From NCBI RefSeq assembly GCF_000760095.1, contig NZ_JNAR01000011.1, forward strand, positions 1-64,000: a stretch of 64,000 nucleotides of DNA, given 5' to 3'. Position numbers and translations under genes: made by a program. Positions 4,907 to 6,480 of the stretch are shown here, in pieces. Position 1 is the stretch's first letter, and each line of letters starts with the position of its first letter. The notes beneath the pieces were generated by a model. That model had not been told where the DNA came from. It ran no database searches and was given only the letters and a program-made list of their open reading frames with translations. Source of the stretch: Prochlorococcus marinus str. MIT 9401 (GTDB taxonomy: Bacteria > Cyanobacteriota > Cyanobacteriia > PCC-6307 > Cyanobiaceae).

Positions 4907-6277
4907 CTACACTGAAGTATTACATTCTTCAAGTTTACCTTTTAATTGATCAAGAGACTCATCAGAAATTTTTGAATTCATTGGACAATGTTTAGGTCCA
5001 CACATAGAACAAAATTCAGCTTTTTTAAAGATTTCTTCAGGTAATGTCTCATCATGATATTGCTTTGCTCGTTCTGGATCTAATGACAGTTCAAATTGTT
5101 TATTCCAATCAAAGTTATACCTTGCATGACTAAGTTCATCATCTCTATCACGAGCTCCAGCCCTATGTCTTGCTATATCAGCAGCATGGGCAGCTATCTT
5201 ATAAGCAATTAATCCTTCTCGCACATCTTCTGCATTGGGGAGACCTAAATGTTCTTTTGGGGTTACATAACATAACATAGATGTTCCATACCAACCAGCC
5301 ATCGCTGCTCCAATAGCACTTGATATATGGTCGTAACCAGGAGATATATCTGTTACCAATGGGCCAAGGACATAAAAGGGAGCTTCTGAACATTCCTCCA
5401 TTTGCTTTCTAACATTAAACTCAATTTGATCCATAGGTACATGACCAGGACCCTCAACCATAACTTGTACATTATGTGCCCACGCTCTTCGAGTAAGCTC
5501 TCCTAAGGTCTTCAATTCAGCTAATTGAGCATCATCAGACGCATCATGCAAACATCCAGGTCTGAGTGAATCTCCTAAAGAAAAAGTGCAATCATATTTC
5601 TTGAAAATCTCACATATATCATCAAACCTTGTATATAGTGGATTTTGCTTAAAATGATGCAACATCCATTGAGCCAAAATCCCCCCTCCTCTACTTACAA
5701 TTCCAGTAATTCTTCCTTTTACTTTTGGCAAATGCTCTATTAATAATCCAGCATGTATAGTTTGATAATCTACGCCTTGCTGGCAATGTTTTTCAATAAT
5801 ATGAAGAAAATCATCTTCAGTTAGTCTATCTATTGAGCCATGTACGCTTTCTAAAGCTTGATATACAGGAACTGTTCCTATCGGAACAGGTGATTCGTGA
5901 ATAATTGCTTGTCTTACTTCATCTAAATTTACTCCTCCTGTAGAAAGGTCCATCACCGTATCAGCACCATATTTAACAGCTAGCTTAAGTTTTTCTACTT
6001 CTTCATTGATATCACTTGCATTAGGGGAAGCACCAATATTTGCATTAACTTTACATCTGGAAGCAATACCTATAGACATTGGCTCAAGATTCAAATGATT
6101 AATATTAGCTGGAATGATTAATCTTCCTCTTGCTACCTCTTCCATAATTAAAGAAGAAGGTAGATTCTCTTTTTTAGCAACAAAATCCATCTCTTCAGTA
6201 ATATAACCGCTCCTTGCAAAGTTCATCTGTGTTACATTGTCTTTCCCAAGGCGAGGCTTAATCCAGGAACTTCTCAT
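4907..6277 (-). CDS. thiC: Phosphomethylpyrimidine synthase ThiC
   Basis: Radical-SAM enzyme turning aminoimidazole ribotide into HMP-phosphate, the pyrimidine half of thiamin. The 456-residue protein has the conserved core ([32 protein letters not shown]) and the C-terminal iron-sulfur motif [11 protein letters not shown] (Cys-X2-Cys-X4-Cys). The ATG at 6275-6277 is preceded by an A+T-rich leader without a clear Shine-Dalgarno sequence. A TPP-type riboswitch lies about 50 bases upstream, so feedback control by the pathway end product is likely. It lacks the long N-terminal domain of the E. coli type, as is usual in cyanobacteria. Confidence 0.98.
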
Positions 6278-6325
6278 AATTTATGAATTTTTAAAAGTGT
6301 TATTACTAAAGTTTGATCAAATTTC

Positions 6326-6414
6326 CACTTCCCTGGATCAAGATTAAGGATTCAAGATTCAGGTTCAAAGGGTATGATCTCAGCTAAGTTAAATTTCTTA
6401 GCACCCCTAGTATT
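6326..6414 (-). ncRNA. TPP-type riboswitch (THI element) in the thiC leader, variant form
   Basis: Read on the minus strand this leader carries hallmark aptamer parts in the right order: GGGGTGC (P2 5' side), a six-pair P3 stem GCTAAG/CTTAGC with an eight-base loop, the conserved GCTGAGAT, ATACCC (P2 3' side), GAACCTGA and finally AGGGAAG. A short P1 can form between TACT and AGTG. The P4/P5 arm between CCTGA and AGGGAA is not canonical: the usual loop and C-G joining bases are missing and it contains two near-copies of AATCTTGA. No intrinsic terminator is evident between aptamer and start, so translational control is the simpler guess. Confidence 0.88.
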
Positions 6415-6480
6415 AATATTATTATTAGCTCTTTTCTAAAAAATAGTCATCACATATTGCGTAAAAATAAATAAAGTATT

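Follow-up and report, generated by a model that had tools for sequence, protein, structure and literature searches.

A TPP-class thiC riboswitch with remodelled diphosphate-site joining bases in a marine picocyanobacterial clade

The thiC leaders of a picocyanobacterial clade contain a riboswitch of the TPP class in which the pyrimidine-sensing half is almost unchanged, and in which the joining bases of the pyrophosphate-sensing half, C77 and G78, are absent in 178 of the 179 species. We analyzed one such leader in a stretch of 64,000 nucleotides from Prochlorococcus marinus str. MIT 9401 (the window), together with its relatives. Judging from the alignments, the loss of the diphosphate site appears to be clade-wide, recurrent and selective, in a riboswitch that otherwise appears functional, and its ligand specificity may be new. 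Two-part ligand recognition is classically exemplified by TPP riboswitches. The leaders of about 180 species, along with some from a dozen further genera, lack one of these parts, and the other is almost fully constrained, so that it can be tested whether a TPP aptamer works on its pyrimidine half alone. This would bear on the regulation of vitamin B1 synthesis in the clade, probably that of the high-light Prochlorococcus. High-light Prochlorococcus is very abundant, and B1 exchange is important in the sea.

The thiC leader of the window

In a search of 401 bases, the minus strand at 6313-6418 scored 46.4 bits against the covariance model RF00059 (E 4e-8), short of the gathering score of 54.3 bits; the scan of the window at the Rfam gathering threshold reported one tRNA and not the thiC leader. 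At E<=10, this match is the only one to RF00059 in the window genome, and the five non-TPP Rfam matches obtained between 6200 and 6600 are all unrelated and far under their own cut-offs. The match ends at 6313, with 35 bases between it and the start codon of thiC at 6277, which places the leader upstream of a thiamin gene.

The preliminary description had placed the leader in the TPP class, calling its pyrimidine half canonical and its pyrophosphate arm non-canonical. The RF00059 match, the motifs in place and the clade alignment confirm the class and the pyrimidine half, and the motifs that it had named are indeed found in the window where it had put them (Table 1). As in other members of RF00059, the order P1-P2-P3-J3-2-J2-4-P4-P5, the GCUGAGA T-loop, ACCC, GAACCUG and the L5 sequence UUAAU are found before thiC, and the pyrimidine-sensor half (P2, P3, J3-2 UGAGA and J2-4 GAA) is present. 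The Rfam consensus around P5 reads AU-ccGG-uUAAUa-CCgg-CG, of which we take the last two letters to be C77 and G78 of E. coli thiM; this numbering is our own assignment. Unlike the members of RF00059, the window leader has U and C instead of C77 and G78, the J4/5 loop is narrowed by a 62-77 pair, and P5 is closed by AUC/GAU and not by GG/CC. P4, P5 and the UAA of L5 are present, with P5 weaker and moved by one pair.

Table 1. Features of the window's thiC leader and gene
Feature	Position	Strand	Basis
ThiC (HMP-P synthase) ORF, 456 aa	4907..6277	-	ORF list; named from its own sequence; in relatives, homologues lie downstream of TPP leaders
TPP-type aptamer, matched at RF00059 positions 1-105	6313..6418	-	cmscan, 46.4 bits; upstream of thiC
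UACUAGGG, alternative partner of CUUUAGUA (6304-6311)	6405..6412	-	predicted folds; pairs possible in 170-179 of 179
P2 5' strand and P3 start, AGGGGTGC	6401..6408	-	1 change in 8 columns, 179-species tree
GGGGTGC	6401-6407	-	position confirmed
P3 hairpin GCTAAG...CTTAGC	6383..6402	-	GCTAAG 6397-6402, CTTAGC 6383-6388; predicted fold
GCTGAGATCATACCC	6370-6384	-	position confirmed
J3-2 UGAGA, pyrimidine-binding T-loop	6378..6382	-	0 changes in 179 genomes; role from accessible parts of PMC3764141
GAUCA, alternative partner of UGAUC (6315-6319)	6375..6379	-	predicted folds; each pair in 178 or 179 of 179
P2 3' strand ACCC and J2-4 UUUGAA	6364..6373	-	0 changes in 179 genomes
P4 5' strand CCUG (CCTG)	6360..6363	-	pairs with 6332-6335 in predicted fold
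AATCTTG, first copy; 7-base duplication peculiar to the window genome	6353..6359	-	spacing 24, against 17 in 173 of 179
L5 UUAAU	6343..6347	-	uUAAUa of the Rfam consensus in relatives' alignments
AATCTTG, second copy; overlaps L5 and P5 3' strand	6339..6345	-	position confirmed
P5 3' strand GAU; 6337 is U at the thiM C77 position	6337..6339	-	predicted fold; clade alignment
C at the thiM G78 position, residue reported as direct pyrophosphate contact	6336	-	clade alignment; literature (accessible parts)
P4 3' strand CAGG	6332..6335	-	predicted fold
Downstream element TTTGATCAAACTTTAGTAATAA, probable expression platform	6300..6321	-	conservation in clade

The RF00059 alignment of the window leader skips P5 and J4/5, setting 17 model positions against 23 bases. 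That the leader is an ordinary TPP riboswitch and the difference an alignment artefact is barely credible: RF00059 does match with an E of 4e-8, but the clade members L061, L094 and L063 can be aligned over their whole length and C-G is nonetheless missing from them, and the motif-anchored columns agree. The same three relatives bear on whether the arm fits the consensus, since their helices do align and their joining bases differ from C-G. The preliminary description had also noted the lack of C-G, of GG/CC closing pairs and of the loop itself; the first two are indeed missing, and the L5 loop is present. The different, longer arm that it had proposed turned out to be the ordinary P4 (CCUG/CAGG) with P5 moved by one pair (AUC/GAU), and contains no new helix. 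A wholly different arm was ruled out because the relatives have P4 and a P5 shifted by one pair, with the internal loop narrowed by the 62-77 pair. The near-duplicate units that it had pointed out in the arm are the two copies of AATCTTG.

Joining bases and constraint inside and outside the clade

RF00059 was run on 400 genomes of the family and on 266 genomes of the window's genus. In the genus, 216 of the 266 match at E<=1 and 72 exceed the gathering score; the 194 genomes without a match at that score comprise 144 with a weaker match and 50 with none, and annotation by the RF00059 cut-off therefore misses 144 of the 216 detectable genus leaders. In the family sample, eight of 251 high-quality genomes have no RF00059 match. 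The searches gave 245 loci, with the core motif in 243, and 238 were kept for a tree built from thiC itself; L090 (at a contig end), L091 (decayed), one locus without a ThiC match and four with fewer than 450 coding bases were dropped. Of the 238 leaders, 179 make up the variant clade (local support 1.0). A further 31 belong to the rest of the genus and 28 to sister genera, the last being taken from the best-scoring family hits and hence leaning canonical.

The joining-base oddity is not due to chance, because remodelled joining bases are common to 178 of the 179 clade species, and the non-canonical character of the arm was thus borne out. The sole species that keeps C-G (L142) also does so in the RF00059 alignment. 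Position 77 of the clade is T in 165, G in 7, A in 5 and C in 2 genomes, and position 78 is G in 132, A in 21, T in 18 and C in 8, with U77-G78 being the commonest state (124/179). A standard pair between positions 62 and 77 can form in 164 of the 179 clade leaders versus 2 of the 31 other genus members and none of the 28 from sister genera, so that the 2x2 internal loop is narrowed in most of the clade. The canonical thiC leaders of the rest of the genus and of the sister genera belong to the same gene and have the same pyrimidine half, and those of the genus have a similar downstream element, but C-G is kept in 30 of 31 and 28 of 28 of them (58 of 59 in total), and 57 of the 59 are without the 62-77 pair. 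The single exception outside the clade, L066, has a P5 of AUCAG/CUGAU with UU replacing C-G, and seemingly represents a separate closing of J4/5.

According to the accessible parts of PMC3764141 and PMC7824784, C77 and G78 are strongly conserved or make close ligand contacts and, together with G60, are residues of the metal/pyrophosphate site; the two papers disagree on whether C77 contacts the pyrophosphate directly. In the clade, 8, 5, 12 and 34 changes were counted on the thiC tree of 238 leaders at G60, A61, C77 and G78, respectively, versus a single change in the 29 columns of P2, J3-2 and J2-4, which are unchanged in 178 of the 179 clade leaders; RF00059 detection forgives loss of P5 more than loss of the pocket, and the 179 were found by the pyrimidine half itself. 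Outside the clade the picture is reversed, with 16 changes in the 29 columns and four at G60, A61, C77 and G78 together (tree lengths of 5.4 units outside versus 6.2 within the clade). Fourfold-degenerate thiC sites have a mean of 18.7 and a median of 15 changes, with 11.7% of the 154 sites having at least 34; the first and second codon positions have a mean of 0.98, and, as thiC itself supplied the tree, the counts for leader columns may be too high in comparison with thiC sites. The 26 leader columns past the downstream element have 2-43 changes (median 19, gaps not counted). Compared with the degenerate thiC sites and the outer leader, the 34 changes at position 78 indicate that it behaves as unconstrained leader sequence.

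The arm that carries these positions is better preserved. The P5 pairs 63-76 and 64-75 can form in 178 and 175 of the 179 genomes, with one two-sided change (L152), the pair 65-74 in just 140, and the P4 pairs in 165 to 179. According to the accessible parts of PMC3764141, A70 of L5 docks on P3; in the 173 genomes of equal length, it has undergone 5 changes, versus 16, 14 and 22 at positions 69, 71 and 72. The retention of these pairs and of A70 suggests, therefore, that P4/P5 is still an arm and that the lost part is the diphosphate pocket. We infer from where constraint vanished that the affinity may be altered or that another thiamin-related ligand may be bound, although G at position 78 in 132 and U77-G78 in 124 of the 179 may mean that a weak diphosphate contact remains.

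An unlikely alternative is that the diphosphate site has been rebuilt and that the leader still senses TPP specifically, using the A62-U77 geometry and other contacts, at a somewhat lower affinity tuned to these cells. In its favour are the retention of the aptamer fold, L5 and P5, the U77-G78 state of most clade leaders, and a pathway that seems still to end in TPP, a thiL match being found in all 16 genomes searched (8 over the cut-off). However, a rebuilt site would be expected to be under constraint, against which stand the 34 changes at position 78 and the variation at 60, 61 and 77, and no newly conserved unpaired base was seen in the columns of the arm.

For comparison, at least 117 leaders of other bacteria were picked by their pyrimidine half and AGGGAA, and among the matches listed, 115 of 117 contain C-G (113 by pattern and two by eye). 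The four that failed the pattern are L382, where the match extended to a later AGGGAA although C-G is present; L357, in which C-G directly follows P5 and is itself followed by one additional base; and the Bacteroidales leaders L289 and L311, real exceptions in which GCT replaces GCG and the P5 stretch is two bases shorter. Twenty genomes of other genera, chosen for their low score, gave 19 matches, of which 18 lie before thiC. Four of these leaders keep C-G; it is missing from the other 14, which belong to 12 genera and whose pyrimidine half is almost undamaged (departures in L395 and L400, and one in the P4 of L402). In six of these genera (g11, g17, g35, g44, g51 and g56), other members match the canonical C-G pattern, which suggests that the losses in other genera were recent and separate. 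The exact 23-base core of the leader gave no hit in viral_contigs.

A search of the open-licence literature found no earlier description of the J4/5 variant. The accessible text of PMC1242208 reports a putative TPP riboswitch before thiC in SS120, MIT 9313 and WH 8102, and none in MED4.

Downstream element and decayed leaders

The downstream element TTTGATCAAACTTTAGTAATAA spans 22 columns, of which 17 have 0-2 changes and five have 7-15 in the 179 genomes; an element so largely invariant speaks against a dead relic. Six clade leaders were folded. In the minimum free energy structures of five (L063, L244, L061, L257 and L152), CUUUAGUA is paired with UACUAGGG of P1/P2, and UGAUC with the GAUCA that follows the T-loop. 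The sixth is the window leader folded with coding sequence, the longest construct, in which only the UGAUC/GAUCA helix appears. A 141-base window construct without coding sequence forms both helices (z-score -2.14; 5 of 200 shuffles were as stable). Each of the eight pairs of UACUAGGG/CUUUAGUA is possible in 170-179, and each of those of GAUCA/UGAUC in 178-179, of the 179 clade leaders. The outermost pair of the first helix can form in 10 of the other 31 genus members, and the remaining pairs of the two helices in 27-31. Two canonical leaders from the main sister group were also folded; L046 forms both helices and L056 neither. According to these folds, the downstream element and the alternative structure resemble an expression platform. 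Binding of a ligand would disrupt the alternative fold and might act on thiC through translation, stability or transcription. No intrinsic terminator was seen by eye in the bases before the thiC start codon.

A ThiC-anchored recheck covered 46 genomes of the genus (10 plus 36), 43 of them from the 50 without an RF00059 match and three with weak matches. thiC was found in 11 of the 46, none of which is among the 238. Five of these loci are cut by contig ends in or just before thiC, three (L414, L415 and L266) have partial, apparently intact leaders, and three (L413, L417 and L267) have full-length leaders with a damaged pyrimidine half; loss of the pyrimidine half does occur in the genus. L413 has two substitutions in this half (ATGCCC and GATCC) and a ThiC that is 99% identical to that of the window, and is perhaps a case of early decay. 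The leaders of L417 and L267 are decayed, with their ThiC proteins being 93-94% identical to that of the window. Thus, two genomes of the genus, represented by L091 (1501-1598, minus strand)/L267 and by L417, have a thoroughly decayed riboswitch before thiC, and in L417 the downstream element is still perfect.

We consider it improbable that the clade leaders no longer switch, with the pyrimidine half being kept for folding, mRNA stability or translation and not for binding. There is a precedent in the thiC aptamers of diatoms, which according to the accessible parts of PMC9544697 are conserved and unresponsive to thiamin, and the two decayed leaders point the same way. However, UGAGA, ACCC and J2-4 are invariant beyond what alternative pairing would need, which is hard to explain without a ligand, and in the two decayed leaders the pyrimidine half is gone as well.

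Thiamin gene content and candidate ligands

The accessible text of PMC10470507 counts pyrimidine vitamers among the components of marine B1 cycling, and reports that TenA is present in high-light and missing from low-light Prochlorococcus, which hinted at a connection with the leader type. The idea that a gain of HMP salvage triggered the change was nevertheless rejected, as PF03070 is found in 206 of the 266 genus genomes, including ones with a canonical leader (G152, G270, G336, G359, G377, G403 and G405). Loss of thiD or thiL was likewise rejected, each being matched in 16 of 16 genomes, with thiL over the curated cut-off in 8. Because tenA, thiD and thiL all occur with both types of leader, gene content does not point to a new ligand. 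Some observations on individual genomes were made along the way. The tenA and thiD matches adjoin in the window genome (G000, contig C12: 24004-25387) and are likely an HMP salvage operon. G336 has three RF00059 matches at E<=1, where nearly all the other genus genomes listed have one. In G386, G411 and G562, all at least 90% complete, ThiC was not found at E<=1e-20, which reflects either assembly gaps or real HMP auxotrophy; a TenA match is present in G386 and G562 and absent in G411.

The reading that we favour, and to which we give about even weight, is that the clade leader is a TPP-class thiC riboswitch without base-specific reading of the diphosphate, which would respond to vitamers containing the thiamin pyrimidine or, more weakly, to TPP. 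A stronger version, that this marine lineage turned its thiC TPP riboswitch into a pyrimidine-only sensor (of HMP, HMP-P, thiamin or TMP) by removing the half of the site that has repeatedly been lost in sister genera, is offered tentatively and seems to us rather doubtful; if true, subtraction would have produced a riboswitch class with a new specificity. It is unlikely that the ligand has truly changed to an un- or monophosphorylated pyrimidine, for example HMP or the ThiC product HMP-P, which would amount to direct product feedback. The pyrimidine pocket with its single change in 29 columns, the adjacent tenA and thiD of the window genome, which would supply and use HMP, and the place of pyrimidine vitamers in the marine B1 cycle (PMC10470507, as far as accessible) are consistent with such a change. 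Nevertheless, tenA and thiD are also found in canonical members of the genus, so that gene content separates nothing, and no new binding residues were seen.

Known systems offer partial parallels. The HMP-PP riboswitch (thiS motif), as described in the accessible parts of PMC6478431, is also linked to the thiamin-pathway pyrimidine in that it senses an intermediate, but it is a compact terminator-embedded aptamer, and no likeness in sequence or architecture to the thiC leader is claimed. Variants of the guanine-class riboswitches resemble the present case in that an old fold was kept and the specificity changed; their ligands, according to the accessible parts of PMC9295807, are established, whereas here the change is a candidate.

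Under the favoured reading, in which the diphosphate is no longer read base-specifically, the pyrophosphate-sensing J4/5 loop would have closed up upon replacement of C77, mostly by a U that can pair with A62. The 2x2 internal loop, which holds the Mg-diphosphate in solved structures, would thereby retain about one unpaired base per strand, and the identity of base 78 would become irrelevant. The ligand would be read mainly through its pyrimidine and could be thiamin, TMP, HMP, HMP-P or, at reduced affinity, TPP. When no ligand is bound, the alternative fold (UACUAGGG/CUUUAGUA and GAUCA/UGAUC) would dismantle P1/P2 and the pocket, and a ligand with the thiamin pyrimidine would favour the aptamer fold and change thiC expression.

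The window leader carries the U at position 77 that is typical of the clade. The C at position 78 is shared by eight of the 179 genomes, namely that of the window, L063, L065, L073, L087, L112, L122 and L158, the last of which also has C77. The window is alone among the 179 in having the AATCTTG duplication between P4 and P5, where its spacing is 24 bases; in the other 178 genomes it is 17 in 173, 16 in four and 18 in one. The duplication may be an assembly error; otherwise, it would be a further local change in the released segment. Either copy of AUC (6356-6358 or 6349-6351) is able to pair with the GAU at 6337-6339.
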